DNA from: Caulobacterales bacterium
GTDB lineage: Bacteria; Pseudomonadota; Alphaproteobacteria; Caulobacterales; Caulobacteraceae
Length of the DNA: 47,547 nt
Assembly (NCBI GenBank): GCA_947474395.1
Contig: CANJID010000031.1
Coordinates: 1 to 47,547 of the forward strand
Direction of reading: 5' to 3'
This document shows positions 10,881 through 27,253 of this stretch, in pieces. A model generated the notes under the pieces. It searched no databases, had not been told where the DNA came from, and saw nothing but the letters and a program-made list of their open reading frames with translations. How positions within the stretch are numbered: position 1 is the first letter of the stretch; every line of letters starts with the position of its first letter. Both the position numbers and the translations under genes were made by a program.

Positions 10881-12037
10881 ACCAGGGCCTTCTCGTAGAT
10901 GCGGTAGGTCTTGTAGATGCGCGCGCCCCAGGCCTCGCAGATGTTCCGCATCGGCATGTTGTCCTCCAGGATCCAGGAGAACTCGCATTGCTCGTAGCCC
11001 ATGGGCGCGGCTTCCTTGGCTGCTGCACCGATGAGCTGGAAGGGCAGCATCCGCCCCCGCATGGAGCGGGCGTGGGCGCGGCGCACCCCCATCAGGGGCA
11101 GGCGCAGGGTCTTCAGCCTATTGCCCTTCAGTCGCCACAGCAGCTTGGCCCAGCCGAAGGGCAGCAACTTCCCCCCTAAGTCCCGGATCGCCTCATTGAG
11201 GTTGGGCAGCAGGACGAGGCAGGCGGCGGGCTCGCCGTCGATCTCGGCGAACCAGACGAGGCGCGGGTCGATCACCGGCCGCATGTTCTCGGCGAGCTGC
11301 CGGGTCTCGGCCTCGGTGGTGGGGGTGAAGCCCCAGTTGTCCTTCCAGGCGTCGTTGAGGATCTCGGTCAGCCGCGCGACCTCCTCGGCGTAGCGGGACA
11401 TGTCGAGCTTGCGCAGGACCACCTTGGAGGAGCTGTCCCGGCGCGCCCGGTTCAAGAGGGCGTCCGACATCTCGTAGTTCCGCACCGGCGCCAGGTAGGC
11501 GAAGACGTCCTTCGCCTTGGCGTAGCCCTGCTCCTCGACGCGCATGCCGGCATAGCGGGGGTCGTGGCCCATCATCACCATCGGCGGGGTGTCGAAGCCG
11601 TCGATAAGGAGGCCGATCTCCTCGTTCACCGACAGGTTGAAGGGGCCCATGGCCACGGCCATGCCGCGGGCCTTCAGCCAAGCTTCCGCTTCCGCGAACA
11701 GGGCCTCGAAGACCTCGGGGTCGTCCTCGGCGGCGATCAGGCCGAAGTGTCCGGCGGGCCGCGCCGGATCGCGGGGGGCGAGCTGGTCGATCTGGGCGCT
11801 GATCCGGCCGACGTCGCGCCCGCCGCGGGACGCGATCCACATCTGGACCTCGGCGTGGGCGAAGAAGGGGTTTTTCGCCGAGAGGGCGTCGAGGCGCTCC
11901 ATCATCAGCGGCGCGACCCAGTTGGGATCGCCCCGGTTGACCGTGTTGGCCACGCGGATGAAGCGCTCCAGGTCGGCCTTGGAGCTGACCGGCTGCAGGG
12001 TCAGGGGCCCAGTGACTTGAGGCTCTGGGGACATCAT
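10877..12037 (-). CDS. bcerS: bacterial ceramide synthase (GNAT-fold acyltransferase)
   Basis: A 386-residue protein matching in type and context the Caulobacter bCerS, a GNAT-superfamily enzyme unrelated to eukaryotic ceramide synthases that N-acylates the sphingoid backbone; members are often mislabelled as dATP pyrophosphohydrolase. Visible landmarks are the N-terminal DPNWVAPLMMERL segment, GPFNLSVNEEIGLLIDGFDTPP at about 130-152 and a C-terminal acyltransferase-like half with MGYEQCEFSWILEDNMPMRN and an ending YKTYRIYEKALV. No membrane segment is evident. The gene overlaps lptG upstream and a nucleotidyltransferase downstream by four bases each, so it is one of five coupled genes. Spt, cerR, acpR and aasR lie within 12 kb, which strongly supports the assignment. 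I recognise it by family plus context, not by a catalytic-residue test. Confidence 0.82.
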   Translation of the reverse strand: MMSPEPQVTGPLTLQPVSSKADLERFIRVANTVNRGDPNWVAPLMMERLDALSAKNPFFAHAEVQMWIASRGGRDVGRISAQIDQLAPRDPARPAGHFGLIAAEDDPEVFEALFAEAEAWLKARGMAVAMGPFNLSVNEEIGLLIDGFDTPPMVMMGHDPRYAGMRVEEQGYAKAKDVFAYLAPVRNYEMSDALLNRARRDSSSKVVLRKLDMSRYAEEVARLTEILNDAWKDNWGFTPTTEAETRQLAENMRPVIDPRLVWFAEIDGEPAACLVLLPNLNEAIRDLGGKLLPFGWAKLLWRLKGNRLKTLRLPLMGVRRAHARSMRGRMLPFQLIGAAAKEAAPMGYEQCEFSWILEDNMPMRNICEAWGARIYKTYRIYEKALV

Positions 12038-13107
12038 CCCTCCAACTTAAGCAGGACCGAAGCGCCGAGCGCCGCGAACACAGCCGGCGCGGTCCAGGCC
12101 GCCAGCAGGGGACCTACCGCGCCGCTCTCGCCCAGGGCGGCGAGGAGGCCGTTGACGACCATGAACAACAATCCGGCGGCGAGGCTTCCCGCCGCGAACA
12201 CCGCCCCCTGGCCGCCGCGGAAACTGGCCATGGCGATAGGGGCGGCCAGGAGCAGCATCAAAAGGTCCCCGATCGGGCCGGCCAGCGCGCCCTGCAGGCG
12301 GGTGGCGTAGTAGCTTGGCGGGCGCTGGGTCCCGCCGCCGGCCAGGGCGCGCTTGGCGGCGGCGGCCGAGATCGCCTGGTCGCCGAAGAACAGGTTCTGC
12401 ACGTCGGCGGGCTCGAAGCCGGGGGCGAGGGTGATCTCGGAGGCCTGGCCCGCCGTCGCGCCCGCCTTGCCGAAACGGACGAACTGAGGGTCGCCGAGGC
12501 GCCAGCCCTGGGGGCCGTAGGTCGCGACGGGCGCGCCGACGCGCTCGGTCAGCCGGCCCTCGGTGTCGCGGCGGTAGATGCGCACGTCCTTCAGTGTCCG
12601 CCCCGTGGGATCGTCGCTCTTGGCCACGAAGACATCGTCGCCGATGCGCACGGCCTTTTCCTTGGGCTTGGCGTCCTTGTCGGCGGGGTTCGGGGGCGGG
12701 GCGGTGGCGGTCCACCAGGCCTGCAGCGCCGCATCGGTGCGCGGCGCGATCACCTGCACGGCGACGAGGTGGACCGCCAGGACGGCGAGGGCCGCGGGCA
12801 GGGCCATCAGCACCAGGCGATAGGCCGAGACGCCGATGGCGCGCATGGCGACGAATTCGCTTTCGGCGGCGAGCTTGATGAAGGCGAAGATCGCGCCCGC
12901 CAGCACGCTCAGCGGCGCGGCCTGGTCGATCATGCGCGGCAGGCGCAGGGACGCGTAATGGAGGATGCCGCCGAAGCCGAGCCCCCGCTGGATGATCTCC
13001 GGGGTGATCTCGAGCAGGTCGAGGATTTGCAGCACCGCCAGCAGGATCGCTCCCGCGCCGAGGATGCGCAGGCCGACGAGCCGCAGGACGTAAAGCGTCA
13101 GTCTCAT
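12034..13107 (-). CDS. lptG: LptG-family permease paralogue (Lpt-like lipid exporter subunit)
   Basis: A 357-residue YjgP/YjgQ-family permease. Three N-terminal membrane helices (from LYVLRLVGLRILGAGAILL), a periplasmic beta-jellyroll part at about 130-255 and three C-terminal helices from about 270 give the canonical LptG plan. LptF and LptG form the membrane core of the ABC machine that lifts LPS out of the inner membrane and passes it to LptC. This copy overlaps lptF (13104-13107) and bcerS (12034-12037) by four bases each, so it is made together with a ceramide-synthesis enzyme. In alphaproteobacteria the housekeeping lptFG pair usually sits beside lptD and surA, which are absent here. 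I therefore read it as a paralogue that may carry sphingolipid; use of the general LPS route is the alternative. Confidence 0.85.
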   Translation of the reverse strand: MRLTLYVLRLVGLRILGAGAILLAVLQILDLLEITPEIIQRGLGFGGILHYASLRLPRMIDQAAPLSVLAGAIFAFIKLAAESEFVAMRAIGVSAYRLVLMALPAALAVLAVHLVAVQVIAPRTDAALQAWWTATAPPPNPADKDAKPKEKAVRIGDDVFVAKSDDPTGRTLKDVRIYRRDTEGRLTERVGAPVATYGPQGWRLGDPQFVRFGKAGATAGQASEITLAPGFEPADVQNLFFGDQAISAAAAKRALAGGGTQRPPSYYATRLQGALAGPIGDLLMLLLAAPIAMASFRGGQGAVFAAGSLAAGLLFMVVNGLLAALGESGAVGPLLAAWTAPAVFAALGASVLLKLEG

Positions 13108-14348
13108 GGGGCGGCCCGCCGTCGGGGCAGGATCGCCGCCTGGACGCGGTCAATCACGTCGCCGATCCGCCCAACGAACTGGCCGATGGGGGTCTCGCCC
13201 GGCCGCTTGCGGCTGCCGGCGAACATCCAGACGCAAAAAGCCGCGAAGAGGAAGAAGGGAAGGCCGACCCCCAGCTCCGGCGACGCCTTGCCGGCCTCGG
13301 CAAGGCCCTGGCCGAACTGCAGTCCGTGCTGGAAGGCGAGGAGCATGGCCCCGGCCAGCAAGAGGCCGGCGGCCCGGCGCCGTCGCTTGGCGGCGAGGCC
13401 GAGCGGCAGGGCCACCAGGGGCAGGAAGGGCAGGACGGCCGAGCGGGCCAGCCGGGCGTAGAGTTCGGCGCGCAGGGTTCCGCGCTTGATCACGGGATTG
13501 GGGGAATCCGCCGCCGCCGCGAGCTCGTCCAGGGTCAGCTCGCGCTCGTCGCCGCCCCGGGACCGCATGGCCTCGATGGCGGCGGTGTCGGCCTGCATGA
13601 CGAAGGTGTCGAAGCCGAGGGTGTCGAAGCCCCCCGACTTGTTCTTGGCCACGCGCAGGCCGTCGCGCAGCAGCAGGGTCACCTGCCGGCCCAGGTTCTC
13701 GTCGGAGACCCGCGCGGTGCGGGCGGTGACCACTTCCTCGCCCTTGGGCGTGGTCCGCAGGATGAAGACGTGGCTCAGCTCGCGCCCATCCAGGCTGGAG
13801 CCGTCGGTGGTCATCACCGTGTCGCCGTTGCTGACGAAGGCGCCGCCGTAGAGCCGCCCGTTCCAGCCCGCGTCGACGGCGGCGTGCAGCACCGCCCGAT
13901 AGGCGTAGCGGCTGTAGGGCTGCAGGTAGCCGAACACCGCCAGGCTGATGACCATCAGCACCAGCCCCAGGATCGTCAGGGGCGCGGCCAGCCGGGTCAG
14001 GGAGACGCCGCTCGCCAGCAGGGCCTCGACCTCCGAGCCGTCGTCCAGGCGGGTGATGACGATGAAGAGGGCAACGAAGAAGGCCACGGGCAAGGCGAGG
14101 CCCAGGTAGTGGGGCAAGAGGTTCGCCACCAGCTCCACCACGGGGCCGAACCGCTCGGCCGACTGGGACAGCATGTCGAGCAGGCGCAGGGTCCGCTCCA
14201 GCAGCAGGGCCACCAGGGCCACGGCGAGACAGGCGAACATCGGCCGCGCCATCATGCGCAGCACGTAACGGTCGATCAGCGCCGGCCGGAACGAGATGGG
14301 CGGCTTGGCGGCCAGGGATTTGCTGGCCAGGGTCAAGCCGGCCGCCAT
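13104..14348 (-). CDS. lptF: LptF-family permease paralogue (Lpt-like lipid exporter subunit)
   Basis: A 414-residue YjgP/YjgQ-family permease with helices near 36-56, 77-98 and 122-144, a soluble periplasmic domain at about 150-300, and helices near 310-330, 335-352 and 368-384. GSEVEALLASGVSL at about 100-115 is the cytoplasmic segment typical of LptF/G that contacts the ATPase. The N-terminus is about 25 residues longer than the first helix needs, so a later start is possible. It overlaps the HIT gene by 16 bases upstream and lptG by four downstream. Partners expected from the family are LptG (next gene), an LptC (24708-25307 in this locus), and LptB, LptA and LptD, which are not in the window and may be shared with LPS export. 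Confidence 0.85.
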   Translation of the reverse strand: MAAGLTLASKSLAAKPPISFRPALIDRYVLRMMARPMFACLAVALVALLLERTLRLLDMLSQSAERFGPVVELVANLLPHYLGLALPVAFFVALFIVITRLDDGSEVEALLASGVSLTRLAAPLTILGLVLMVISLAVFGYLQPYSRYAYRAVLHAAVDAGWNGRLYGGAFVSNGDTVMTTDGSSLDGRELSHVFILRTTPKGEEVVTARTARVSDENLGRQVTLLLRDGLRVAKNKSGGFDTLGFDTFVMQADTAAIEAMRSRGGDERELTLDELAAAADSPNPVIKRGTLRAELYARLARSAVLPFLPLVALPLGLAAKRRRRAAGLLLAGAMLLAFQHGLQFGQGLAEAGKASPELGVGLPFFLFAAFCVWMFAGSRKRPGETPIGQFVGRIGDVIDRVQAAILPRRRAAP

Positions 14349-14770: not shown

Positions 14771-14811
14771 GCTCAACCTACTCAAGCTGCCGGCCCAAAT
14801 TTAAGCACTTT

Positions 14812-14860
14812 GAGCAGGATTGATGCGGAAAACCGGAGCCCACTTTCCCGCATCCCGCTC
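14812..14860. repeat. interspersed palindromic repeat, divergent copy
   Basis: An imperfect inverted repeat running from GAGC at 14812 to GCTC at 14857-14860, with arms GATGCGGAAAA and TTTCCCGCATC around a CCGG/CCCAC centre. It is of the same general kind as the two better-matched copies at 31026 and 45113 (short intergenic palindrome with a GGCGAAA or GCGGAAA / CACTTTC core). It lies between the divergent HIT and DUF2141 genes and may form a hairpin in both transcripts' leaders. Confidence 0.6.
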
Positions 14861-14896
14861 CAGTCGGTTGATACATCGAGAGGCGCGTTCATCCCC

Positions 14897-15370
14897 GTGA
14901 AATCGACAAGCGTAACGGCCTTTGTGGCCCTGAGTGCAGCCGGGGCCCTGTGGAGTGGAGCGGCGGCGGCGGACGACTGCGCGGGCGCGCCGGGCTCCAC
15001 CATGCTGAACGTGCACGTCGAGGGCGTGCGCGCCGCCAAGGGCGACGTGACGGTCACCGTCTATCCGGACGACGCCAAGCGGTTCCTGGCGCCCAAGAGC
15101 AAGCTGGCCCGCGAGCGGCCGACGGCCAAGGCGCCGGAGACGACCGCCTGCTTCACCCTGCCGGGGCCCGGCTATTACGCGGTGGCGGTCTATCACGACG
15201 CCAACGGCGACAATGATTTCAACCGCACCCTCATCGGCCTGCCCGCCGAGGGGTTCGGCTTCTCCAACGATCCGTCCACGGTGACCGGCCTGCCGTCCTT
15301 CAAGTCGGTGCGGTTCCAGGTCGGGCCCGGCGAGACGCAACTGCCGATCAAGCTGCGATACCTGAAGTAA
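14897..15370 (+). CDS. exported DUF2141-domain protein
   Basis: 157 residues from GTG 14897, chosen because it opens the signal peptide (VKSTSVTAFVALSAAG, cleavage after about residue 26 before DDCAG). The mature part is the DUF2141 beta-sandwich: MLNVHVEGVRAAKGDVTVTVYPDD, then GYYAVAVYHDANGDNDFN and LPAEGFGFSND, all typical family segments. The acidic DANGDNDFN turn may bind a divalent cation. The function of the family is unknown. It starts a short plus-strand unit and its end overlaps that of the facing metallophosphoesterase gene by 23 bases. It sits inside the sphingolipid locus but on its own, so a functional tie is unproven. The ribosome site is weak (GAGAGG at about 13 bases). Confidence 0.8.
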   Translation: MKSTSVTAFVALSAAGALWSGAAAADDCAGAPGSTMLNVHVEGVRAAKGDVTVTVYPDDAKRFLAPKSKLARERPTAKAPETTACFTLPGPGYYAVAVYHDANGDNDFNRTLIGLPAEGFGFSNDPSTVTGLPSFKSVRFQVGPGETQLPIKLRYLK

Positions 15371-16253
15371 GGCCCGGCAGGGCGTAGCGGCCCAGCTCGC
15401 CGATCACGCCTGTCGCCGGGTCCAGGCCGCGAGCGATCACCGTCACCGAGAACGCCCCCTTCGCGCCGTCGATCTCGATCGCGTGCCAGCGGGCAGGCGG
15501 GTGCCTGCCGCCGCCGGGGGACGAGGCCGAGGGGACGCCCAGCACCGGAATGGGCCCGTCCGGCCCCTGCGCCGCCCCGAACACCGCCTCGTGGCCGTGC
15601 CCGTGCAGCACCAGTTCCGCGCCGTGGCGAGCGAGGGCCGCGCGAAGGGCACCGGCGTCCTCCAGCGACTTGCGCTTCGAGACCACGCCGTCGAGGGCCG
15701 GATGGTGCAGCATGACCACGCGAAACAGCCCTTCGCGCCGCAGTTGGTCCAGCGCCTCGCCGAGCGCCGCGATCTGTACTTCGCCCAGCCGCCCCCCTGC
15801 AAAAAGGGGCGGGGTGGGGATGGCTGAGCACAGGTTGACGATGCCGACCGTCCCCCGCCGCCGCACATGCGGAAATTCCGTCCTCTCGTCGTCGCCGAAC
15901 CACGGGCGCAGCATGGCGAAGCGCTCGGCCTGGCCGTCGGCCACCAGGGCGTCGTGGTTCCCAGGGCTGACTGTGACGTCGCGTGCAGGTCCGAGGGTTT
16001 GCAGCCACGTGACAGCCGCGGCGTATTCGACGGGCGTAGAGAAGTTGGTCAGGTCGCCGGTTAGGGCGATGTGGTCGGGGGAATGGGCGGCGATGTCCGC
16101 GGTCAGGGCCGCCAGCACCGCCGGATCGTGCTCGTAATGCTTGCGCCGCCACGACAGACGGCTGAGCGTCCGCTTGGAGGCCCACTCCCGCAACGGTCCC
16201 ATCCCCGCCGGCGAGGGCAGGTGGGGATCGGAGAGGTGGGCGAGGCGAAACAC
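15348..16253 (-). CDS. metallophosphoesterase (calcineurin-like)
   Basis: 301 residues from GTG 16253, which begins FRLAHLSDPH, the first strand and metal motif. The five signature blocks of the family are complete: D9-x-H11, G66-D67 in LTGDLTN, GNHD at 98-101, HH at 183-184 in MLHHP, and GHGH at 218-221. These bind two metal ions and hydrolyse a phospho-mono- or diester. There is no signal peptide, so it works in the cytosol. In-frame sequence upstream of 16253 lacks family features. The gene diverges from the lipid head-group operon that starts at 16375 and could share its promoter region. A phosphatase acting on a lipid head-group intermediate is possible, but the substrate is not deducible. 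Confidence 0.85.
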   Translation of the reverse strand: MFRLAHLSDPHLPSPAGMGPLREWASKRTLSRLSWRRKHYEHDPAVLAALTADIAAHSPDHIALTGDLTNFSTPVEYAAAVTWLQTLGPARDVTVSPGNHDALVADGQAERFAMLRPWFGDDERTEFPHVRRRGTVGIVNLCSAIPTPPLFAGGRLGEVQIAALGEALDQLRREGLFRVVMLHHPALDGVVSKRKSLEDAGALRAALARHGAELVLHGHGHEAVFGAAQGPDGPIPVLGVPSASSPGGGRHPPARWHAIEIDGAKGAFSVTVIARGLDPATGVIGELGRYALPGLTSGIAA

Positions 16254-16374
16254 CGGCGGCGGTTTCCCTGGCTGTGGCCGAAGCGGGCGGGCGTGGGTAA
16301 TAGACCTGACGGCTTTACAGGGACGGGCGAGCTTGACCAATCCATTGCGCGAGACACCGGCCCGTCCCAGGGCG

Positions 16375-17457
16375 ATGGCGGCCGGCGGCTCCGAGGTCCG
16401 GATCTGGGGCATGACCGCCGCCCAGCGCCTGAGCCGCAGCTTCCAGCGCCTGGGTCTGGCGGCCTACGACCCTTCTGACCCGACCGGCAACGTTGTGCTG
16501 GTCGACGCCGGCTGGGTGCTGGACGAGGCCCTGGTGCGGGCCCTGGCCGAACGGCCCGGCGCGGCGCTGGTTGACGGCGCAGGCCGCGCGGTCGCGGTGC
16601 ATATCGCCGCTGCCGAAGCCGCCGCCGCGACGAACGCCCTGCAGGCTGGGACGCTGGCCGGGAGTCATGAGCGCCTGACCGCGATGGAGCTCCTCGGAGC
16701 CTACAACAGCGCGCTTCGGAAGCGCGAGCCGCCGGTGCTGGAGCGGCTGACCGCCGAGACCGTGCGGCCGGTCGAGAAGCGGCTGTTCCAGGGGTCCTAC
16801 AAGGGCGTCACCGACCTCGTCACCAAGCACGTCTGGCCCGCGCCCGCCCGCGTGGTGACCCGCTGGTGCGCCCTCGCCGGGATCACCCCCAACCAGGTCA
16901 CCTTCGCCAGCTTCATCCTGGTTCTGGCGGCGATGTGGCTGTTCTGGACCGGCCACTTTGGCTGGGGTCTCGTCTGCGCCTGGATCATGACCTTCCTCGA
17001 CACGGTGGACGGCAAGCTGGCGCGGGTGACCCTGACCTCGTCCAAGATCGGCAATGTGTTCGACCACGGCATAGACCTGATCCACCCGCCGTTCTGGTGG
17101 TGGGCCTGGGTGGTCGGCGCGCAGATGAGTTTGCACCCGCTCGCTGAGCCCGGCGTCGTGCTGTGGGTCGTTGTCGGGGGCTACGTCGCCCAGCGGCTGC
17201 TGGAGGGGGCGTTCATCGCCGCGTTCAAGGTCGAGATGCACGCCTGGCGGCCCTTCGACAGCTTCTTCCGCCAGATCACAGCGCGCCGGAACCCCAACCT
17301 GATCCTCCTGACCCTCGCCTGCCTGGTGGGGCGACCGGACCTCGGCATGATCGCCGTCGCCGTCTGGACCGCCCTGAGCTTCGCCGTGCACCTCGTGCAG
17401 TGCGTGCAGGCGGGGCTCGCGCCTAAGGGCTCAATCGTCTCCTGGCTGTCCCGCTGA
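16375..17457 (+). CDS. CDP-alcohol phosphatidyltransferase with extra N-terminal domain (sphingolipid head-group gene)
   Basis: 360 residues from ATG 16375 (TTG 16333 is possible). The C-terminal membrane domain has the complete CDP-alcohol signature: D209-x2-D212-G213-x2-A216-R217-x8-G226-x3-D230-x3-D234, within several transmembrane helices. Residues about 20-130 are an added soluble domain (GNVVLVDAGWVLDEALVRAL, then GAGRAVAVHIA) that looks like a reduced nucleotidyltransferase domain, as seen in fused inositol-phosphate enzymes. The next genes overlap (TGATG, then ATGA), so the three are one unit: this gene, a lipid kinase and a nucleotidyltransferase-fold protein. In Caulobacter the equivalent trio (cpg genes) is required for ceramide phosphoglycerate. 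I expect this enzyme to attach or exchange the polar head group, but its donor and acceptor are unproven. Confidence 0.83.
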   Translation: MAAGGSEVRIWGMTAAQRLSRSFQRLGLAAYDPSDPTGNVVLVDAGWVLDEALVRALAERPGAALVDGAGRAVAVHIAAAEAAAATNALQAGTLAGSHERLTAMELLGAYNSALRKREPPVLERLTAETVRPVEKRLFQGSYKGVTDLVTKHVWPAPARVVTRWCALAGITPNQVTFASFILVLAAMWLFWTGHFGWGLVCAWIMTFLDTVDGKLARVTLTSSKIGNVFDHGIDLIHPPFWWWAWVVGAQMSLHPLAEPGVVLWVVVGGYVAQRLLEGAFIAAFKVEMHAWRPFDSFFRQITARRNPNLILLTLACLVGRPDLGMIAVAVWTALSFAVHLVQCVQAGLAPKGSIVSWLSR

Positions 17458-18359
17458 TGCGCGCCGCCGTCGTCCGCAATCCCCTCAGCCACCGCAATCG
17501 CGGCGCGGCGGGCGGCGGACGGACGGATGTGCCGGTCGCTGAGCCGGACACCCCCGAGGCCCTGGCGGCCGACCTGAAGCGTTTCGCCGCCGACGGGGTG
17601 GAACTGCTGGTGATCGACGGCGGCGACGGCACGGTGCGGGAAGTGGCCAGCGCCTTGGCCGCCGCCTTCGGGGAGCGCCCGCCGGTCCTGGCGGTGCTGC
17701 CGTCGGGCAAGACCAACATCCTCGCCTTTGATCTGGGAGTTCCGCGGTCCTGGTCTCTGGAAGCGCTCCTGACGGCGGCACAGCGGCCGGTCCTGAAGAC
17801 CCGCGCGCCGCTCGAACTGCGCCGGCAGGGGGAAGACGCGACGCTCAGCGGTTTCCTCTTCGGCGCCGCCGGCTTCGTGCGGGCCAAGGCCGTGGCCGAA
17901 GAGCTGCACCGGGCCGGGGTGGTGAACAACTCGGCCGTGGCCCTGGCCCTGGCTCGCGGTGTGACGGGCGCCATCGGCGGCGGCGGACACGGCGCCTGGC
18001 GGGACGGCGATCCCTTGAGCCTAAGCATCGACGGCGCTCCTGCGCGGGCGGGCGCCCGGTTCGTGACCCTGGCCACCACCCTGCAGCGCCTGCCCTTCGC
18101 CATGCGCCCGTTCGGCCCCGGCGGCCCGGGCCTGAAGTTCCTGGATGTGGACGCCCCGCCTCGTGGTCTCGCCTGGACCCTGCCGGGTCTGCTGTGGGGC
18201 CGGGACGAGAGCGGGCTGGCGGATCGGGGCTACCGGCGCGGCGCGGCGGCGCGACTGGAGATCTCCCTTCCCACACCCTTCGTCCTCGACGGCGAGGTCT
18301 ATTCCGGCGGTGACCTCACCTTGTCGGAGGGCCCGCCCCTGCGGTTCCTGACCCCATGA
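17457..18359 (+). CDS. cpgB: ceramide kinase-type lipid kinase (diacylglycerol kinase family)
   Basis: A 300-residue protein with the diacylglycerol-kinase catalytic fold. GGDGT at 55-59 (VIDGGDGTVREV) binds ATP, and VLPSGKTNILAFDLG at about 80-95 replaces the usual P-x-GTGND-x-A segment. The C-terminal beta domain ends FVLDGEVYSGGDL. Its ATG overlaps the stop of the CDP-alcohol gene in TGATG, and its end overlaps the next gene in ATGA. In Caulobacter the gene at the matching place, next to spt, encodes CpgB, an evolutionarily distinct ceramide kinase that makes ceramide-1-phosphate. Family, neighbours and order all agree, hence the symbol; the substrate has not been shown for this protein. 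Confidence 0.82.
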   Translation: MRAAVVRNPLSHRNRGAAGGGRTDVPVAEPDTPEALAADLKRFAADGVELLVIDGGDGTVREVASALAAAFGERPPVLAVLPSGKTNILAFDLGVPRSWSLEALLTAAQRPVLKTRAPLELRRQGEDATLSGFLFGAAGFVRAKAVAEELHRAGVVNNSAVALALARGVTGAIGGGGHGAWRDGDPLSLSIDGAPARAGARFVTLATTLQRLPFAMRPFGPGGPGLKFLDVDAPPRGLAWTLPGLLWGRDESGLADRGYRRGAAARLEISLPTPFVLDGEVYSGGDLTLSEGPPLRFLTP

Positions 18360-19267
18360 GCGAGGACCTCGCCCGGGCCGTGGAGCGCGAACTGGCCACG
18401 CCTGCGCCGGCCTTCGCGGCGCGCTTAGCCGCCTTCCTGGCCGAACGGTTCGAGGATGCAGCGGCCGTGCTGTTCTACGGCTCGGCCCTGCGAACGGGGG
18501 ACACGGATGGCGTCCTCGACTTCTACGTCCTCACCCGATCGCCGCCGCGGCGCTTGCTGAGCCGCCTGATCTGGCCGGACGTGAGTTACTGGGAGATGGA
18601 CGACGGGCCGGCGCGCCTGCGGGCCAAGGTCGCCGCCATGAGTCTCGCCCAGTTCCGGCGGGCGGCGGCGGGGGAGGGGATCGATACCACGGTCTGGGCC
18701 CGGTTCGTGCAGCCCTGCACCCTGGCCTGGAGCGACGGCCCCGACAGCGCCCAGGCGGTGAGCGGAGCCTTGGCCGAGGCCGCGAAAACCGCAGGCCGGT
18801 TCGCGGCGGCCCTGGGTCCGGAGGAGGGGACGCCCGCCGCCTTCTGGACCAGCCTCTTCAGCCGCACCTACGCCGCCGAGTTCCGCGTCGAGCCGGGCGG
18901 GCGGGAGGCCTCGATCCTCGCCGCCGATCCGGCGCGCTACGAGGCGCGGCTATCGCAGGTTTGGCGCGCGGCGGGGATCGAGTTTGCGGCCCGCGAGGCG
19001 GGTACCCTTCGGCCCGCGCTGCCCTCGGCGGAGAGGGCGAGGCTGCTGCGGGCTTGGCGGGTCCGGCGGGCTTTTGGTCGGCCGCTGACCATTGCGCGGC
19101 TGATCAAGGCGGCCTTCACCTTCGACGGCGCGGCCCGCTATGCGGCGTGGAAGATCGAGCGTCACACGGGCGTGGCGGTGCCGCTCACGCCATGGCGCGA
19201 ACGGCATCCGATCCTGGCGGCGCCGGGGGTGCTGTGGCGGCTAAGGCGAGCCCGCCGCCGAGCCTAG
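18356..19267 (+). CDS. nucleotidyltransferase-fold protein of the sphingolipid head-group operon (possibly Tam41-like)
   Basis: 303 residues. The N-terminal part has the minimal nucleotidyltransferase signature: LFYGSALRTG (Gly42-Ser43), and Asp55 in VLDFYVLTR as a metal-binding acid. The order tyrosine-Gly-Ser, short loop, hydrophobic-Asp-Phe recalls Tam41, the mitochondrial CDP-diacylglycerol synthase, although overall similarity cannot be measured here. The rest is helical and rich in Arg, ending in a basic tail (WRLRRARRRA) that could touch membrane lipids. It overlaps the kinase gene by four bases and its stop shares CTAG with spt (19264-19267). Together with a CDP-alcohol transferase and a lipid kinase, a cytidylyltransferase making a CDP-lipid is an attractive reading: kinase makes ceramide-phosphate, this enzyme activates it, the transferase adds the alcohol. 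That order is inference. Confidence 0.7.
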   Translation: MSEDLARAVERELATPAPAFAARLAAFLAERFEDAAAVLFYGSALRTGDTDGVLDFYVLTRSPPRRLLSRLIWPDVSYWEMDDGPARLRAKVAAMSLAQFRRAAAGEGIDTTVWARFVQPCTLAWSDGPDSAQAVSGALAEAAKTAGRFAAALGPEEGTPAAFWTSLFSRTYAAEFRVEPGGREASILAADPARYEARLSQVWRAAGIEFAAREAGTLRPALPSAERARLLRAWRVRRAFGRPLTIARLIKAAFTFDGAARYAAWKIERHTGVAVPLTPWRERHPILAAPGVLWRLRRARRRA

Positions 19268-20487
19268 CTCCTCGCGGAAGCGCGCTGACGCGGGGAGAGG
19301 ATCAGGCCGAAGGCCTCGCCCACTTCGGCGAAGACCGCCAGGACGCGGTCGATCTGCTCGGGGGTGTGGGCGGCGCTGACGCTGGAGCGCAGCAGCGGGA
19401 CCGAGTCCGGCGTGGCGGGGGGCAGGGCGAGGTTGAGGTAGACGCCCTTGTCGAGCAGGGTCTTCCACACCGCGACCGCCAGGCCCGGTTCGGGCACAGC
19501 CACCGCGACGATGGGGTTGCACTGCGGCCCGACCTGAAACCCGAGTGTCTTCAGACCTTCGTAAAGCCGTTGCGCATTGGCGATAAGCCGGTGGCGAAGC
19601 TGGGGCTGGGTCTGGACGATATGCAGGGCCTGAAGGGTGGATGCGACGACGCTCGGGGGCAGGGAGGCCGTGAACATGTACGGCCGGCAGACCACGCGCA
19701 GGACGTCGAAGCCTTCGATGTCCGAGACGCAGAAGCCGCCGATGGCGCCGAGGCTCTTGGAGAAGGTGCCGACGATGACGTCCACGTCCTTCTCGACGTC
19801 CTGGGCTTCGGCCAGGCCGCGCCCCTTTTCGCCAAGCACGCCCAGGGAGTGGGCCTCGTCCACCAGCAGGTAGGCGCCCATCTCCTTCTTGACCTCGACG
19901 AACTCCCTCAGCGGGGCGGCGTCGCCCAGCATGGAGTAGATGCCCTCGGCGACGATCAGGCTCTTGCCCGGCGAGCCCTTGAGCCGCTGCAGGCGCTTGC
20001 GCAGGTCGTCCGGATCGTTGTGGCGGAAGCGGATGACCTCGGCGTGGCCGAGGCGCGAGCCGTCGTAGAGGCTGGCGTGGCTGTCGGCGTCGAGCAGCAG
20101 GTGGTCGCCCCGGCCGACCAGGGTCGACAGGACCCCGAGGTTGGCCTGGTAGCCGGTGGTGAAGGTCATGGCGTGGCGGCGGCCGTAGAACTTGGCGATC
20201 GCGGCTTCCAGCTCGTGGTGCCCGCCGAAGCTGCCGTTGGCGATACGCGAGCCGGTCGTGCCGGTGCCGAAGCGGTTCAGGGCCTCGCTCGAGGCCGAGA
20301 TGCACGACTCGTCGAAGGTCAGGCCCAGATAGTTGTTGGTGCCCAAAAGGATCATGGGCTTGCCGTTCAGCACGCCTTCGCTGGGCGAATTGACCGCCTC
20401 GAAGCGCACATTGAACGGATCGGCGCCTGTGTCGCGGATGGCCTGGTAGGCCGAGCGATAGGCTTCGTGTTTGTCGAGCAGGCTCAT
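19264..20487 (-). CDS. spt: serine palmitoyltransferase, first enzyme of sphingolipid synthesis
   Basis: A 407-residue PLP enzyme of the alpha-oxoamine synthase family. It condenses L-serine with an acyl thioester to give 3-oxo-sphinganine. Landmarks: FGTGTTGSRIANGS at 73-86, HHELE at about 90-94, His137 in DADSHASL stacking on PLP, D210-E-A-H213 in LLVDEAHSLGVLG, and Lys244 in TFSKSLGAIGG as the Schiff-base lysine. Length is normal for the soluble bacterial enzyme. It lies three bases after the acyl carrier protein gene, consistent with use of acyl-ACP instead of acyl-CoA. It is the last gene of a minus-strand operon running lptC - glycerophosphotransferase - microprotein - aasR - cerR - acpR - spt. 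AONS, KBL or ALAS would be alternatives by fold, but the neighbours exclude them. Confidence 0.93.
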   Translation of the reverse strand: MSLLDKHEAYRSAYQAIRDTGADPFNVRFEAVNSPSEGVLNGKPMILLGTNNYLGLTFDESCISASSEALNRFGTGTTGSRIANGSFGGHHELEAAIAKFYGRRHAMTFTTGYQANLGVLSTLVGRGDHLLLDADSHASLYDGSRLGHAEVIRFRHNDPDDLRKRLQRLKGSPGKSLIVAEGIYSMLGDAAPLREFVEVKKEMGAYLLVDEAHSLGVLGEKGRGLAEAQDVEKDVDVIVGTFSKSLGAIGGFCVSDIEGFDVLRVVCRPYMFTASLPPSVVASTLQALHIVQTQPQLRHRLIANAQRLYEGLKTLGFQVGPQCNPIVAVAVPEPGLAVAVWKTLLDKGVYLNLALPPATPDSVPLLRSSVSAAHTPEQIDRVLAVFAEVGEAFGLILSPRQRASARS

Positions 20488-20489
20488 TC

Positions 20490-20741
20490 CTACGCCCTCA
20501 CCCGCAGGTCGTTGATGAGGGCGGCGAGGTCGCCCACAGTTTCCACGTCGGCAAGGCGGTCAAGCGGGATGGAGAGTTCGAAGGTGTCTTCGAGCTCCAT
20601 GACGATGTTCATGAGGGTCAGGGAATCGATGCCGAGGTCGCGTCCAATGTTGGACGCGGCCGTCACTTCGACCGTCTTCTGCATGACCTGCGACGCGGTG
20701 CGCCCGATCTGGCGGACCGTTAGGTCGGTCACGGAATCCAT
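20490..20741 (-). CDS. acpR: dedicated acyl carrier protein for sphingolipid synthesis
   Basis: 83 residues from ATG 20741, with a GGGGG-type ribosome site upstream; longer in-frame starts give an Arg-rich, non-ACP N-terminus. Ser40 in LGIDSLTLMNIVMELE carries the 4'-phosphopantetheine arm. The helical plan follows ACPs, and VETVGDLAALI forms the last helix. It is placed between the ceramide reductase gene and spt, and upstream aasR encodes the ligase expected to load it. In Caulobacter the equivalent AcpR delivers the acyl chain to Spt. Primary fatty acid synthesis would use a different ACP, normally next to fabG/fabF, so this is the specialised one. Confidence 0.9.
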   Translation of the reverse strand: MDSVTDLTVRQIGRTASQVMQKTVEVTAASNIGRDLGIDSLTLMNIVMELEDTFELSIPLDRLADVETVGDLAALINDLRVRA

Positions 20742-20818
20742 CTGCAATACCCCCAAAGCCCCCTCCAAGCGCCTGCGGCCGGCAGAGCGCAAAGCGCCCG
20801 GCCAAGCCGACGTCCGGC

Positions 20819-21742
20819 CTAGAGCCAACCCCGCGATCGGTACCAGCCGACCGTCTGTCGAAACCCTGACAACAGATCAAACCGTGGCCCGGGCGTGCCT
20901 AGCGCCCGTTCGTCCGGTCGAACCCCCCAGTCCGGGTGAGTCAACTCCCGGACCTTCTCCAATGTAAACGCGGCTTTGCCTCTGCGCCAGTCCACCTGGA
21001 ACCCATCGGCCGCCGCGAGGGCGTAAAGGGCCGCTTTCGGGAGGTGGAAAGTGCGTGCGGGGCGGTCCAAAACGGCGGCGGCGGCCCCCATGATCTCAGG
21101 CCAGCCGTAGCCTTCCGGCCTGTCGTCGCAGAGGGTGAAGGGTCCACTTTCCATTGAATCTGCAAGGAAAACTGCCTGGCGTGCGGCGTCCTCGACGTGG
21201 ACCAGGGCGAGCCGCGCCGCGGGGTCCAGCACCGGCAGGATGGGGCTCGACGCCACAAGGACGAACAGACGCAGGGTTTCGCGGTCTCCCGGGCCATAGA
21301 TCGCCGGCGGACGCACTATAGTCGCCCGATGGGCGAGTATCTGCGTCACTACATCTTCGCTCGCGCGCTTGCTGGCGGCGTAGGCCGACAGGTGCGGCTC
21401 GCGCGCCGCGAGGCTGGATATGTGCAGGACTCGCCCGGATGTGGCGGCTTCGGCGAGGCGCCGGCTGCCCTCCACGTTCACCCGCTCGAGGTCGCGGGGG
21501 GAGCCGCCGATCAGGCCCGCGGAATGCACCACCAGGTCGGCCCCCCTGCAGAGGCGTTTCAGCGCGGCCTCGTCCCCGAGGTCGCCGATGACGACTTCAG
21601 GGGTCACCCCTTGCCAGAACGGGCTGATCGGATCGCGGCGCGCCAGGATCCGCACCCCCCAGCCGGCGTGGCTGAGGGCGCACACGAGGTGCTGGCCGAG
21701 GAACCCGGTGGCGCCGGTGACCGCGGCGAGCCCCCGGCTCAC
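20819..21742 (-). CDS. cerR: ceramide reductase, NAD-dependent epimerase/dehydratase family (extended SDR)
   Basis: 307 residues from GTG 21742. The dinucleotide loop is TGATGFLGQHL (Gly10, Gly13, Gly16), followed by VVIGDLGDEAAL at about 50. The catalytic pair is Tyr121-x3-Lys125 (YAASK), with Ser109/Ser110 in HISSLAA before it, so the extended short-chain dehydrogenase site is complete. In Caulobacter the gene at this position, CerR, reduces the 3-oxo group of the N-acylated sphingoid intermediate with NAD(P)H. The start overlaps the stop of aasR by four bases (GTGA) and 77 bases separate it from acpR. By sequence alone it could be any sugar or steroid epimerase; the operon decides the call. 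Confidence 0.87.
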   Translation of the reverse strand: MSRGLAAVTGATGFLGQHLVCALSHAGWGVRILARRDPISPFWQGVTPEVVIGDLGDEAALKRLCRGADLVVHSAGLIGGSPRDLERVNVEGSRRLAEAATSGRVLHISSLAAREPHLSAYAASKRASEDVVTQILAHRATIVRPPAIYGPGDRETLRLFVLVASSPILPVLDPAARLALVHVEDAARQAVFLADSMESGPFTLCDDRPEGYGWPEIMGAAAAVLDRPARTFHLPKAALYALAAADGFQVDWRRGKAAFTLEKVRELTHPDWGVRPDERALGTPGPRFDLLSGFRQTVGWYRSRGWL

Positions 21743-23454
21743 GCCCTGGCGAGCTCCGGGTCGTAGGCGCCCGACAACCAGAGCGCCCGCGCCTTGGAGC
21801 GGCTGAGCTTGCCGGAGGAGGTGTGGGGCAGGGCGTGCGCCCCGACCAGCCGGACCTCGACCTCGATGCCGTGACGCGCTCGCAGCACGCGACGGACCTC
21901 GGATTCCAGATGCTCGCGCACGGCTGCGTCCCGCGTGCGGGCCTGGACCAGCACCACCACTCGCTCCTCACCGTCGCCCGGGACGGAGAAGGCGGCCACA
22001 TCGCCGCTGCGGATCGCATCGAGCTCTGCCTCGCAGGTCCATTCCAGGTCCTGGGGCCAGAGGTTGCGGCCGTTGATGATCATCAGGTCCTTGGAGCGGC
22101 CGGTGATGACGATCTCGTCTCCCGCCCGGTAGCCGAGGTCGCCGGTGTCGAGCCAGCCGTCGGGGGAAAGCACCCGCGCGGTCTCCTCCGGCTGGCCGTA
22201 ATAGCCCTCCATCAGGCTCGGCCCGCGAGCGAAGATGCGCCCCACGCCGCGCTCGGGGGCGGTGGCGCCGTCCTCGGTGCGCACGTCCAGTTCCTGACCC
22301 GGCAGGGGCGGTCCGCAGAGGACGAAGTCGCGCACCCGCTCGGCGGTCTCGCCGGCGACCGCCAGCCCGTCCTGCTCAAGCCGGTCCATGTCCAGGGTGT
22401 CGATGACAATGCCGCGCCCCACAGGGGACATGCTGAGGGCCAGGGCCGCCTCGGCCATGCCGTAGCTGGCCAGGAAGGCCCCCGGGGCGAAGCCGGAAGT
22501 GGCGAAGCGCTCGGCGAAGTCGCCCAAGGGTCCGCTGCGGATCATGTCGCCGCCCAGCCCTGCCGCGCGCCAGGTCGAAAGGTCCATTGTTTCCGTCCGA
22601 CCGCCTTCGGCGCGCCGGGCGCAGAGCTCGTAGCCGAAGGTGGGACTGAAGGAGATGGTGGCGGCGTTTCGGCTGATCAGGTCGAGCCAGAGCAGGGGGC
22701 GGCGCACGAAGGCCTCGGTGGGCAGCATGTCCACCGTCATCTGGCAGGCCAGCGGGCTAAGCAGGAACCCGACCAGTCCCATGTCGTGATAGAGCGGCAG
22801 CCACGAGACCGCCCGGTCTGCGGCGGTGACACCGAGGCCGTGGCGCGTGATCTGCTCGGCGTTGGCCATCAGGGCGCGGTGGGTCACCAGCACCCCGGCG
22901 GGAAAGCGCGTGCTGCCCGACGAGAACTGCAGATAGCAGGGGCTTTCCGGCGTGATGGCCGGAAGCTGCGCGCCGGGAGCGGCGGCCGGCAGGTCGGCGA
23001 CCGAGCCGACGAAGCGGACAGACGCCGGCGTCTCGGTCATCCAGGCGGTCAGGGCCGGCGGACCCAGCAAAGCCGCCGCGTCGGCGGATTCGAGCATCCG
23101 GGTGATCTGGGCGACGTAGGCGTCCTTGCCGCCCAGGGGCGCGGGCATGGCCAGCGGCGCGGGGATCATGCCGGCGTACTGACAGGCGAAGAAGCCCCGC
23201 ACGAAGTCCCCGTCGGTCTCGGCGATCAGCCCGACCCGGTCGCCGACCTTAAGCCCCGCGGCCAGAAGCCTGCCCGCCAGGGCCTCGGCCTCGTCGCGAA
23301 GACGCCGGTAGGACAGGGCCTCGGCGATCTCGCCACGAACCGTATGGAAGCAAAGACCTGTCTCGCCGGTCGCGGCGAATTCCAGCGCCTCTATGAGAGT
23401 CGCGAAGTCGGCGAGCCGGATGAAGCGTTCGGGGGCGGTGGGAAGGCCTGTCAC
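21739..23454 (-). CDS. aasR: fatty acyl-AMP/acyl-ACP ligase of the sphingolipid operon
   Basis: A 571-residue ANL-superfamily adenylating enzyme from GTG 23454 (AGGTGAAGGGC upstream). Core motifs: LQFSSGSTRFPAGVLVTH at 175-192 (ATP loop), WLPLYHDMGLVGFLLSPL at about 218-235, SYGMAEAALALS (adenine pocket), DGWLDTGDLGY and GRSKDLMIINGRNLWPQD (hinge), and Lys549 in SSGKLSRSKAR as the adenylation lysine. The hinge sequence with GRN-x-x-P-QD is characteristic of fatty acyl-AMP ligases that hand the acyl group to an ACP rather than to CoA. It should load AcpR, two genes downstream, for Spt. Its GTG overlaps the TGA of the small gene 23451-23579 and its end overlaps cerR. Confidence 0.9.
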   Translation of the reverse strand: MTGLPTAPERFIRLADFATLIEALEFAATGETGLCFHTVRGEIAEALSYRRLRDEAEALAGRLLAAGLKVGDRVGLIAETDGDFVRGFFACQYAGMIPAPLAMPAPLGGKDAYVAQITRMLESADAAALLGPPALTAWMTETPASVRFVGSVADLPAAAPGAQLPAITPESPCYLQFSSGSTRFPAGVLVTHRALMANAEQITRHGLGVTAADRAVSWLPLYHDMGLVGFLLSPLACQMTVDMLPTEAFVRRPLLWLDLISRNAATISFSPTFGYELCARRAEGGRTETMDLSTWRAAGLGGDMIRSGPLGDFAERFATSGFAPGAFLASYGMAEAALALSMSPVGRGIVIDTLDMDRLEQDGLAVAGETAERVRDFVLCGPPLPGQELDVRTEDGATAPERGVGRIFARGPSLMEGYYGQPEETARVLSPDGWLDTGDLGYRAGDEIVITGRSKDLMIINGRNLWPQDLEWTCEAELDAIRSGDVAAFSVPGDGEERVVVLVQARTRDAAVREHLESEVRRVLRARHGIEVEVRLVGAHALPHTSSGKLSRSKARALWLSGAYDPELARA

Positions 23455-23579
23455 GCGCCGCCCTTCACCTGAACTGCGGGGTTCGCGCAAGCGGTTTCGC
23501 GCCTGCCGCCTTGAAGCACGAGATCGGCGCCCGCCGCAAACGCGGCCATGGCCATGACTGAGGCGGGGACGAAGCTCAT
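23451..23579 (-). CDS. 42-residue microprotein, translationally coupled on both sides
   Basis: A short frame fills exactly the gap between two sphingolipid genes. It starts ATG 23579, overlapping the TGA of the glycerophosphotransferase-like gene as ATGA, and stops TGA 23451-23453, overlapping the GTG of aasR as GTGA. The N-terminal half is hydrophobic with three Met (MSFVPASVMAMAAFAAGADL); the C-terminal half is polar with a short basic GGRRE, a single Cys, and ends VQVKGGA. It may be a one-pass or peripheral membrane peptide. Overlaps at both ends are the pattern of the neighbouring real genes, which argues that it is translated. It may also serve to couple ribosomes onto aasR. I recognise no family. 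Confidence 0.6.
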   Translation of the reverse strand: MSFVPASVMAMAAFAAGADLVLQGGRRETACANPAVQVKGGA

Positions 23580-24718
23580 GCCGCGCTCCGCTCGATGCGG
23601 CGCACGATCGCCTCGGCGGCCCGTTCCGAGGAGGCGCGCGCCTGCAGGTCGAAGGTTTCGGCCAGGCCCGCCTGCTGCTCGGCGAGGTAGAGGGAGGCGT
23701 GGTCGGCCTGGGCGCGGTCCACGGCCTCCAGAACCTGCGCTGCGGTCTCCACCACCGGCCCGAAGCGCCAGAAGCGGTAGCCCTCACGGCCCTGCCAGTC
23801 GATGCGGTGGGCGTCGAGGAAGGCGCAGGGTCGGGGGGTGCGGATGAACTCGTAGATCTGGCTCGAGACGTCGCCGAGATAGACGTCGGCCATGCGGGTG
23901 TAGGTCATGTCGATCATCGCCGGTCCCGCCAGGTCCACATGGATATTGGGGGCCGCGGCGAAGCGGGCGAGCTCGGGCGGAGCGGGGTTGCCGTCGAACA
24001 GGCGGATGTGCGGGGCGAAGATCAGGTTGTAGCGCCCGTCGACGGCGAAGCGCTGCAGCACCTCCAGGCCCTGGCCGGGCCATGAGCTCAGGCGCGGGTC
24101 GAAGTGGGGGTTGTAGAGAACGATCGGCCGCTTCTCGGCGAATGGCGGGGTGGGTCTGGCCGGCAGGGCCTCCACGATATCGAACTTTGGATAGCCGACG
24201 ACGGCGCAGTCCTCGGGCCTGGCCAGGCCCTCGCCGACGATCCGGTCGTACTGCTTGGGGCCGGAGGCCATCACCAGATCGAACTGCCGCAGGCGGGGCT
24301 CGAAGGGCCCGTCCCGGTCGCCCGCGCCGTGCTGGGTGTAGACCAGCTTGGGACCCCTGACGCCCAGGGTGCGGAGCAGGGCGGTGGTCCGCTCGGGGGT
24401 GACGATGGCGGCATAACGCCCGAGCGCCAAGGCGTTGGCGATCAGCATGGGGACTTTGGGGGGAATCGAGGCCCCGCCCTTCAGCGCCCTCAGCCAGGCC
24501 GGTCCGAGCAGGCGCAGGGTGGGCGAGGGGACGCCGAGGCGGCCCACGAGCTCGGTCACGTAGTCGAGCTGGGTCTGGGCTGTGGCGGCGATCTCCACCT
24601 GGTACCGCGGCCAGCCGCGGGCGAGCGCCAGGGCTATGGGCAGGCTGTGCAGCACCTGGTGCGGCTGGGCGATGAACAGGAAGCAGACGCGTCCGCCCGC
24701 CCCGGGCTCAGCGGACAT
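23576..24718 (-). CDS. CDP-glycerol glycerophosphotransferase-like protein (TagB/SpsB family)
   Basis: A 380-residue GT-B-like protein. Landmarks of the CDP-glycerol:poly(glycerophosphate) glycerophosphotransferase family are present: TQHGAGDRDG with His130-Gly131, VVGYPKFD at 173-180, LYNPHFDP at 201-208, APHIRLF at 235-241, and YLGDVSSQIYEF at 280-291, which takes the place of the family's S-D-Y-S-S segment. Gram-positive members build teichoic acid; Gram-negative ones modify glycans or lipids with phospho-glycerol units. It sits between lptC and the microprotein/aasR in one operon (11-base overlap with lptC, 4-base overlap downstream). In a locus expected to make ceramide phosphoglycerate this enzyme is a good candidate for adding a glycerol-phosphate or phosphoglycerate unit. 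Direct evidence is lacking. Confidence 0.78.
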   Translation of the reverse strand: MSAEPGAGGRVCFLFIAQPHQVLHSLPIALALARGWPRYQVEIAATAQTQLDYVTELVGRLGVPSPTLRLLGPAWLRALKGGASIPPKVPMLIANALALGRYAAIVTPERTTALLRTLGVRGPKLVYTQHGAGDRDGPFEPRLRQFDLVMASGPKQYDRIVGEGLARPEDCAVVGYPKFDIVEALPARPTPPFAEKRPIVLYNPHFDPRLSSWPGQGLEVLQRFAVDGRYNLIFAPHIRLFDGNPAPPELARFAAAPNIHVDLAGPAMIDMTYTRMADVYLGDVSSQIYEFIRTPRPCAFLDAHRIDWQGREGYRFWRFGPVVETAAQVLEAVDRAQADHASLYLAEQQAGLAETFDLQARASSERAAEAIVRRIERSAA

Positions 24719-25307
24719 TGAACCGACCGTGGACGCCGCCCTTGAACACCGTGCGCCCGCTCTTGGTGCTGTAGCTGTCGGCGCGGATCGAGCCGTTCTG
24801 GCTGGACCCGCGGAAGCCCTTGCCGGTGACGAGCCCCGTGGTGGTGTCGATCACCGCATTGTCGGCGAGCGCCTGGTCGCGGCCGCCCCGCACCGTGCGG
24901 ACGTCGCCCTCCAGCCGCAGAATCTGGTCGTCCTGGCGGAAGGCCCCGCGCTTGGCCGTGGTGCGCGCGCCCGTCTCCTCGCCCTTGCGGACGGTGACGA
25001 CCGGATTGTCCAGGCGAAACAGCATGGCGTCCTTGGCGTCCCGGACTCCGGTGGTCGCGGTCACCAGGTAATGCTTTCCGTCTTTCCCCTGACCGCTGAA
25101 GGAGGGATTGATCATCCGCACCTCGGCTTCGCTGACCTTGGGCGTGAACGTATTGGCGACCTGGTACTCGCGCCAGGCCACCTGGGCCCCCACCACGACG
25201 ACCAGCGCCGCCGCCGCCGACGGCAGGACCAGCCGCAGGCTCCGCACCAGCGCCAGCCGCGTGCGGCGCCAGTTCACGGCTCTGATCTCTGACCGGTCCA
25301 AACTCAA
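24708..25307 (-). CDS. lptC: LptC-family periplasmic bridge protein paralogue
   Basis: 199 residues, starting at TTG 25307 (GTG 25277 is the alternative). One N-terminal transmembrane helix at about 28-45 (VLPSAAAALVVVVGAQ) anchors a periplasmic domain of repeating strands (VRMINPSFSGQGKDGKHYLVT, then FRQDDQILRLEGDVRTV) typical of the LptC/OstA fold, which forms a groove for lipid acyl chains. It begins the operon that ends with spt. The housekeeping lptC in proteobacteria is normally next to lptA, lptB and rpoN, none of which is here, so this is probably a second copy. With the lptF/lptG pair at 12034-14348 it could form a lipid-export bridge for the sphingolipid. Confidence 0.82.
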   Translation of the reverse strand: MSLDRSEIRAVNWRRTRLALVRSLRLVLPSAAAALVVVVGAQVAWREYQVANTFTPKVSEAEVRMINPSFSGQGKDGKHYLVTATTGVRDAKDAMLFRLDNPVVTVRKGEETGARTTAKRGAFRQDDQILRLEGDVRTVRGGRDQALADNAVIDTTTGLVTGKGFRGSSQNGSIRADSYSTKSGRTVFKGGVHGRFNVR

Positions 25308-26122: not shown

Positions 26123-26200
26123 CCTCGTGCGGAGGTTGCACGCTTTCCGCGGCGTCATTGCAATATGGGAGCGATTGACGATGAGTCGGAGCGGCAGGGC

Positions 26201-27220: not shown

Positions 27221-27253
27221 GCCGTAGAACCCCGGGGGGGCCGGAAAGTCTAA

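Follow-up and report, generated by a model that had tools for sequence, protein, structure and literature searches.

Our analysis of a 47,547-nucleotide stretch of a Caulobacterales genome (contig CANJID010000031.1, positions 1 to 47,547; hereafter the window) strongly suggests that a second copy of the Lpt permease pair LptF and LptG, encoded by lptF2 and lptG2 in one operon with the ceramide synthase gene cerS (Table 1), carries sphingolipids to the cell surface, because relatives that seemingly lack lipopolysaccharide (LPS) keep only this sphingolipid-type copy. We regard as highly probable an arrangement in which LptF2 and LptG2 make up the membrane-embedded half of a further Lpt extractor. 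With the single LptB of the cell as its probable motor, this extractor would lift sphingolipids bearing a head group (probably ceramide phosphoglycerates in this organism) from the periplasmic leaflet of the inner membrane and hand them to LptC, or here perhaps to LptC2, from where they would pass to the shared LptA bridge and then the shared LptD translocon. From the comparisons below we infer what is carried and in which direction, that the permeases form a complex with LptB, and that the lipid is passed on to the shared bridge. The idea of sphingolipid export is itself not new and is in print as a proposal: a 2024 study (PMC11324152, cited here, like all other papers, from the passages available) names CC_1168, CC_1156 and CC_1155 of Caulobacter as LptC2, LptF2 and LptG2, proposes for them an LPS-like transport of phosphosphingolipids, and states that transport was not investigated. 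New with respect to those passages are the absence of the housekeeping pair from genomes lacking LpxC, the trees and a second LptFG clade. No experimental test of the idea was found among the matches listed in a full-text collection that lacks most subscription papers and bioRxiv.

The genome that contains the window (3.58 Mb, 99.65% complete) possesses four LptF/G genes, two in the window and lptF1-lptG1 beside lptD (C7:30346-32555), and two LptC genes, lptC2 in the window and lptC1 beside lptA and lptB (C24:38239), so that a second lptF, lptG and lptC, as implied by a first-pass annotation of this DNA, are all present. LptA and LptD were each found once, and one of 46 ABC-ATPase matches scored over the LptB cut-off. 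All three are located on contigs C24 and C7, outside the window, as the first-pass annotation had noted for lptD and lptA/lptB; since the genome has a single copy of each, their sharing by both permease sets, which had been offered as a possibility, is the simplest arrangement. The Pfam family PF03739 (LptF_LptG, cut-off 27.9 bits) spans nearly all of both window permeases, the two matches scoring 214 and 206 bits. LptF2 scored 187 bits against the LPS equivalog TIGR04407 (NCBI cut-off 230) and LptG2 204 bits against TIGR04408 (cut-off 240), both below the cut-off in a comparison that is one-sided, the housekeeping pair being unscored. The described joining of lptF2, lptG2 and cerS by 4-base overlaps is exact at both junctions by coordinates and translation.

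Co-occurrence was assessed in a class-wide sample of 241 alphaproteobacterial genomes with a completeness of 90% or more, in which LptF/G, ceramide synthase (CerS) and LpxC were counted. Nearly full-length homologues of the window's cerS product (30-54% identity) were found in 39 of the 240 other genomes, and 40 CerS positives remained after a partial 26% match in G053 was dropped as not CerS. Among genomes with LpxC, 16 of the 18 CerS positives had at least four LptF/G matches and the other 2 had two, compared with four matches in 1 of the 189 CerS negatives (three in 5, two in 176, one in 6 and none in 1). The sole negative with four, G018, has a far diverged second pair. This excess of double sets in CerS positives (16/18 vs 1/189) gave a Fisher p of 8.6e-21, a value that ignores relatedness. 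In families with both CerS-positive and CerS-negative members possessing LpxC, the extra pair was limited to the CerS positives in six of seven cases (f1, f14, f29, f43, f77 and f109; the exception is f30). The expectation that the set accompanies spt, the serine palmitoyltransferase gene, was therefore borne out for ceramide synthase across genomes, spt itself being seen in gene neighbourhoods only.

Genomes lacking LpxC were taken as LPS-free on that basis alone. LptFG was retained in 20 of the 22 CerS-positive genomes of this kind (two LptF/G in 19, three in 1 and none in 2), the 12 CerS-negative ones having none in 6, two in 5 and three in 1. In 19 of the 20, no more than about 5.1 kb separates the retained pair from cerS; in the remaining genome, G161, the distance is 24 kb and the pair sits beside head-group genes. 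The trees described below place all 20 pairs on the sphingolipid-type side. A single LptD is encoded in each of the 20, either on a different contig from lptFG or separated from it by 19 kb or more. Searches for LptA succeeded in 19 (G163 being the exception); 17 gave an LptC match distinct from LptA, and in 17 LptB was located close to the lptA/lptC locus. The lptD loci were read in 19 of these genomes (G161 was left out) and none of the 19 stretches had an LptF/G match at lptD, so that the sphingolipid-type pair is kept here without the housekeeping pair. In the window's genome the gap between pepA and lptD measures 2454 bases and is filled by lptF1-lptG1; pepA and lptD abut in 13 of the 19 loci, with extrapolated gaps of 45-198 bases (rough for G196 and G231), and pepA was not found in the stretch in the remaining 6. 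The neighbourhood of pepA and lptFG is probably old, because E. coli likewise has pepA next to lptFG, and was probably lost in the inferred LPS-free lineages. The simplest reading is that loss of LPS took the LPS permeases with it and left the sphingolipid permeases and the other bridge components in place, which would explain why bacteria lacking LpxC keep an LPS bridge.

Phylogenetic analysis placed LptF2 and LptG2 outside the clade of alphaproteobacterial housekeeping LPS pairs. In the first trees (65 LptF and 64 LptG rows from 47 genomes), 27 of 28 housekeeping-labelled rows fell on one side of a branch in each tree (SH-aLRT 97 for LptF, 99 for LptG). All sphingolipid-locus rows, including those of inferred LPS-free genomes, were on the opposite side, together with the long-branched second pair of G018 and the lone LptF of G207, and the pair of G208 adjoined the housekeeping group on a long branch. 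Extended trees with E. coli and named loci (34 LptF and 36 LptG rows used, from the best 80 loci among the matches listed in a scan of 84,980 genomes; 20 near-duplicate or partial loci and open reading frames (ORFs) below 250 aa were left out) gave the same split, with G208 moving into a further clade. Trees of 40 rows resolved three groups, namely the window type (S; support 100/99 for LptF and 99/96 for LptG), the alphaproteobacterial housekeeping type (H; 100/100 in both) and a second sphingolipid-linked type (T; 100/99 and 98/94). Forcing eight inferred LPS-free rows to group with H was rejected (approximately unbiased (AU) test, p 2.5e-42 for LptF and 5.5e-9 for LptG), and a single origin of S and T could be rejected with LptG (p 0.0006), whereas LptF allowed it (p 0.15). 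The G018 second pair and the G207 lone LptF were left out of the extended and 40-row trees, the topology tests and the residue counts on account of their long branches. The separate ancestry expected by the first-pass annotation is thus seen for lptF and lptG, the two genes that the tree check covered.

Residue counts were made for 27 H and 35 S rows, with the G208 pair left out. The glutamates that couple the permeases to LptB in E. coli, LptF E84 and LptG E88 (PMC5548808), are invariant in all 27 H and all 35 S rows. LptG K40 and K41 are named as LPS contacts (PMC6744409); in the K40 and K41 columns H rows mostly have Arg (24 and 20 of 27, respectively), and S rows often have an acidic residue, Asp or Glu (14 and 22 of 35). 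These two columns may be of little weight, because growth of the E. coli K40E/K41E double mutant was unaffected (PMC5548808). LptF column 30, near the contact R33, is always basic in S (Arg or Lys, 35 of 35 rows) and mostly Gln in H (21 of 27). The LPS phosphate contacts LptG K34 and R136 were rejected as cargo discriminators, the former column being Asp in 25 of 27 H and 30 of 35 S rows and R136 being mostly not kept in either type.

The presence of LptFG followed that of head-group genes. This count used 41 of the 80 best named loci, those with both flanks complete (39 with incomplete flanks were dropped); many loci were from Caulobacteraceae, and S and T were split by a score threshold of our own setting. 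Where a CpgB- or CpgC-like gene was present, LptFG lay within 10 kb of cerS in 31 of 31 loci (28 S, 3 T), as opposed to 4 of 10 loci (1 S, 3 T; none in 6) where such a gene was absent, and the LptFG machine therefore seems tied to head-group-bearing sphingolipids rather than to ceramide as such. Likewise, no CpgB or CpgC was found beside cerS in the CerS-positive genomes without S- or T-type LptFG (G028, G064, G055 and G235), the stretch of G028 being short on one side. The second clade of LptFG in ceramide operons comprised L177, L181, L182, L170, L173, L213, L217, L226, L231 and G208 (L101), with hosts in Azotobacter/Pseudomonas, Immundisolibacter, Acidocella and Nitrospirillum loci; L231 (A. 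vinelandii) was assigned by BLAST scores only. No CpgB or CpgC was found near the second-clade pair in L177, L181 and L213, all with full flanks. Its nearest neighbour in the trees is E. coli LptFG, and since E. coli was the sole non-alphaproteobacterial housekeeping sequence there, we say only that T may derive from a gammaproteobacterial-type housekeeping pair.

In comparison to the LptB2FGC complex and Lpt bridge of E. coli, Shigella and Klebsiella (PMC5548808, PMC6744409), the window system has the same Pfam family over nearly its full length, the same coupling glutamates, an LptC-like partner, and one LptB, LptA and LptD in its genome. It differs in that its permeases score below the curated LPS cut-offs, form a clade separate from the alphaproteobacterial LPS pair, differ at several LPS-contact residues, and are encoded with ceramide and head-group genes, not with lptD. 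Genes, cluster order and proposed function are the same as for C. crescentus CC_1168, CC_1156 and CC_1155 (PMC11324152), although the available passages of that paper count the Azotobacter genes as orthologues, whereas our Azotobacter (L217) and Pseudomonas (L226) rows lie in the other clade.

Several observations weigh against the export reading or narrow it. LptC2 matches PF06835 modestly (35.5 bits, cut-off 21), remains below the cut-off of the TIGR04409 equivalog (29.5 bits, cut-off 38) and shares 29.6% identity with the lptC1 product. Among 49 genomes searched, the window's was the only one to yield a second LptC that was not LptA; second matches in other genomes overlapped LptA, and 5 of the 49 had no LptC match. 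A search for LptC2 in the related loci found no copy but that of the window, the other matches being weak and to ordinary LptC, with the named loci reaching at most 10 kb from cerS, a range that would mostly miss it. At best, then, a dedicated LptC is an optional component, and since a second one occurs in 1 of 49 genomes, relatives probably use the ordinary LptC. Of the sphingolipid-specific second Lpt machine put forward by the first-pass annotation, the dedicated LptFG permease stands on paralogy, trees and co-occurrence, and the dedicated LptC seems not to hold generally. Ceramide genes can also exist without sphingolipid-type LptFG, because the LPS-positive, CerS-positive genomes G028 and G064 have the housekeeping pair only, and G055 (L120) and G235 (L121), with CerS and no LpxC, gave no match for LptF/G, LptC, LptA or LptD. 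Conversely, 6 of the 12 genomes lacking both CerS and LpxC retain LptFG (contrast p 0.013), so that sphingolipid makers are not alone in keeping the pair when LpxC is missing. Within the inferred LPS-free set, G047, G112 and G196 gave no LptC match apart from LptA (3 of 20), and for L239, L245 and L246 (3 of 20) the stretch read around lptA/lptC yielded no LptB. Three genomes of one family (G010, G125 and G207), also inferred LPS-free, have S-type LptFG and cerS with no CpgB or CpgC nearby, genes elsewhere not having been searched. The LptG K34 column, which in E. coli is a key contact for LPS, carries an acidic residue in both alphaproteobacterial types. The inference of LPS-free status from LpxC and the disregard of relatedness in the Fisher tests apply to the counts above as a whole.

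Alternatively, LptF2G2 may be a second general extractor that handles both LPS and sphingolipid for redundancy or dosage, its operon position reflecting co-regulation. The shared family, the same LptB-coupling glutamates and the single downstream LptD, LptA and LptB of this genome would all be compatible with this. We consider it improbable, as the sphingolipid-type pair is the only one kept in LpxC-less genomes, two pairs almost never occur in LPS-positive genomes without CerS (1/189), and several LPS-contact positions differ between the types. A different cargo, such as another envelope lipid or an intermediate (oxidised ceramide on its way to a periplasmic CerR, or a lipid-linked head-group donor), would fit the periplasmic location of CerR and the statement in the available passages of PMC11087976 (2024) that no flippase or lipid transporter has been identified, as well as the closer tracking of LptFG with head-group genes than with ceramide genes. 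However, LptF/G as described so far draw lipid out of the periplasmic leaflet and deliver it to LptC, LptA and LptD (PMC5548808, PMC6744409), and LptD (20/20), LptA (19) and LptC (17) persist in the inferred LPS-free genomes, which makes this explanation very unlikely.

It could also be argued that a transferable sphingolipid cluster merely happens to include an unrelated lptFG pair, since the cluster is patchy within families and present in alpha, beta and gamma classes. This can hardly be credited when LpxC-less genomes without the housekeeping pair keep the sphingolipid-type pair, when a second LptFG clade also occurs in ceramide operons, and when mutant cofitness ties lptC2 and lptF2 to sphingolipid genes (data of another study cited in PMC11324152: lptC2 with spt 0.52, CC_1159 with lptC2 0.78 and with lptF2 0.60).

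Sphingolipid export by LptF2G2 thus remains our preferred reading. The route of sphingolipids to the outer membrane was called unknown in two 2024 papers (PMC11324152, PMC11087976), and the comparative result provides a specific candidate for it. We also lean, with more reserve, towards a wider view in which the Lpt bridge would be a general outer-leaflet conveyor with exchangeable permease cassettes, LptFG having been recruited to sphingolipid operons at least twice (S and T), and in which LPS-free alphaproteobacterial lineages would have dropped the LPS cassette between pepA and lptD and run LptB, LptC, LptA and LptD on sphingolipids alone. Sphingolipids make up the outer surface of some bacteria. 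Natural permease pairs that probably share motor and bridge and differ in cargo offer a system for studying Lpt cargo specificity.

AsmA-like proteins and the Mla/MCE systems also carry lipids between membranes and have different folds. Besides LptF/G, no many-helix family common to the 115 related loci was found that could represent a flippase. An ABC-exporter-sized gene (569-782 aa, at least five predicted helices, in a cluster of ATPase-like ORFs) was present in 11 of the 115 (L076, L088, L159, L168, L169, L174, L215, L217, L225, L226 and L231), with no member in the window, and is a possible sphingolipid flippase candidate. The near-complete alphaproteobacterial genomes G055 and G235 have a ceramide operon, and would either possess an outer membrane without LPS or Lpt or use an unknown route.

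Table 1. Features of the window related to the sphingolipid cluster
Feature	Coordinates	Strand	Remarks
CpgD-like nucleotidyltransferase	9472..10119	+	CpgD name inferred from position and PMC12275187; true start probably upstream
cerS, bacterial ceramide synthase homologue	10877..12037	-	386 aa; named by synteny (position of CC_1154, PMC11324152)
lptG2, sphingolipid-type LptG permease	12034..13107	-	357 aa; PF03739 E 4e-63; sphingolipid clade in trees
lptF2, sphingolipid-type LptF permease	13104..14348	-	414 aa; PF03739 E 1.1e-60; sphingolipid clade in trees
metallophosphoesterase	15348..16412	-	PF00149 E 3.5e-12; beside lptFG in many loci
CpgA-position CDP-alcohol phosphatidyltransferase	16141..17457	+	PF01066 E 1.5e-11; synteny; ORF start probably over-extended
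CpgB-position ceramide kinase (diacylglycerol-kinase family)	17457..18359	+	PF00781 E 2.9e-12; synteny
CpgC-position head-group gene	18356..19267	+	order spt-cpgC-cpgB-cpgA by ccna numbers, PMC12275187
spt, serine palmitoyltransferase	19264..20487	-	NF047599 669 bits, cut-off 500
acyl carrier protein	20490..20828	-	acyl carrier protein models below cut-off, E down to 2.1e-12
CerR-position SDR reductase	20819..21742	-	best NCBIfam match TIGR03466, below cut-off
fatty acyl-AMP ligase (AasR position)	21739..23445	-	NF006624 829 bits; start inferred
380-aa gene after lptC2	23576..24718	-	PF04464 E 0.0075, below cut-off; weakly like CDP-glycerol glycerophosphotransferases
lptC2, LptC-like protein	24708..25307	-	199 aa; PF06835; N-terminal hydrophobic segment by eye; TTG start uncertain

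The window brings together Spt, acyl carrier protein (ACP), CerR, acyl-AMP ligase, CerS and head-group genes in one region, as in the CPG2 cluster of the CC_1168-CC_1152 type; several gene names in this assignment, including cpg and cerS, follow from synteny with the Caulobacter cluster in PMC11324152 and PMC12275187. Curated families were searched with the cerS product and none reached its cut-off. The minus-strand run that begins with lptC2 continues with the 380-aa gene, the fatty acyl-AMP ligase, the CerR-position SDR, ACP and spt, which agrees with the first-pass annotation of an lptC-family gene at the head of an operon ending in spt. Because CpgD makes CDP-glycerate (PMC12275187), the 380-aa gene could be a candidate phosphoglycerate transferase; CC_1167, perhaps the same gene, is called probably unrelated in the available passages of PMC11324152. 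No counterpart of CC_1166 was recognised at its place in the window cluster. The ligase ORF is open to 23787, with the family match starting near 23442, and the CerR-position SDR is a partner gene in many related loci.

The genes in cpgA, cpgB and cpgC order are on the plus strand between two minus-strand operons, and the CpgD-like gene lies beyond cerS; the product of the latter clusters with a nucleotidyltransferase-like family present in 47 of 115 related loci. A Pfam search with the CpgC-position gene gave no match, and its identification as CpgD was rejected, as gene order places it at CpgC and the CpgD-like gene is found elsewhere.

The metallophosphoesterase and a DUF2141 protein (14459-15370) recur by lptFG/cerS in many loci of several classes. 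In 44 loci, a small protein of 2-4 helices lies beside cerS (for example L076:12319-13080 and L085:8677-9459) with histidine motifs that we read as desaturase- or hydroxylase-like; no window ORF of at least 130 aa belongs to its cluster. Ceramide synthase homologues with 47-48% identity were also found in L212, L219, L225, L228 and L230, whose contigs are labelled Chloroflexi, Methylomirabilota, Geobacteraceae, Deltaproteobacteria and Desulfobacterales; no LptFG was found in these stretches, of which L212 and L219 are short. Adjoining lptC2 on the plus strand, positions 25379-29656 resemble, by eye only, a set of an ECF sigma factor, a FecR-type regulator and a TonB receptor.

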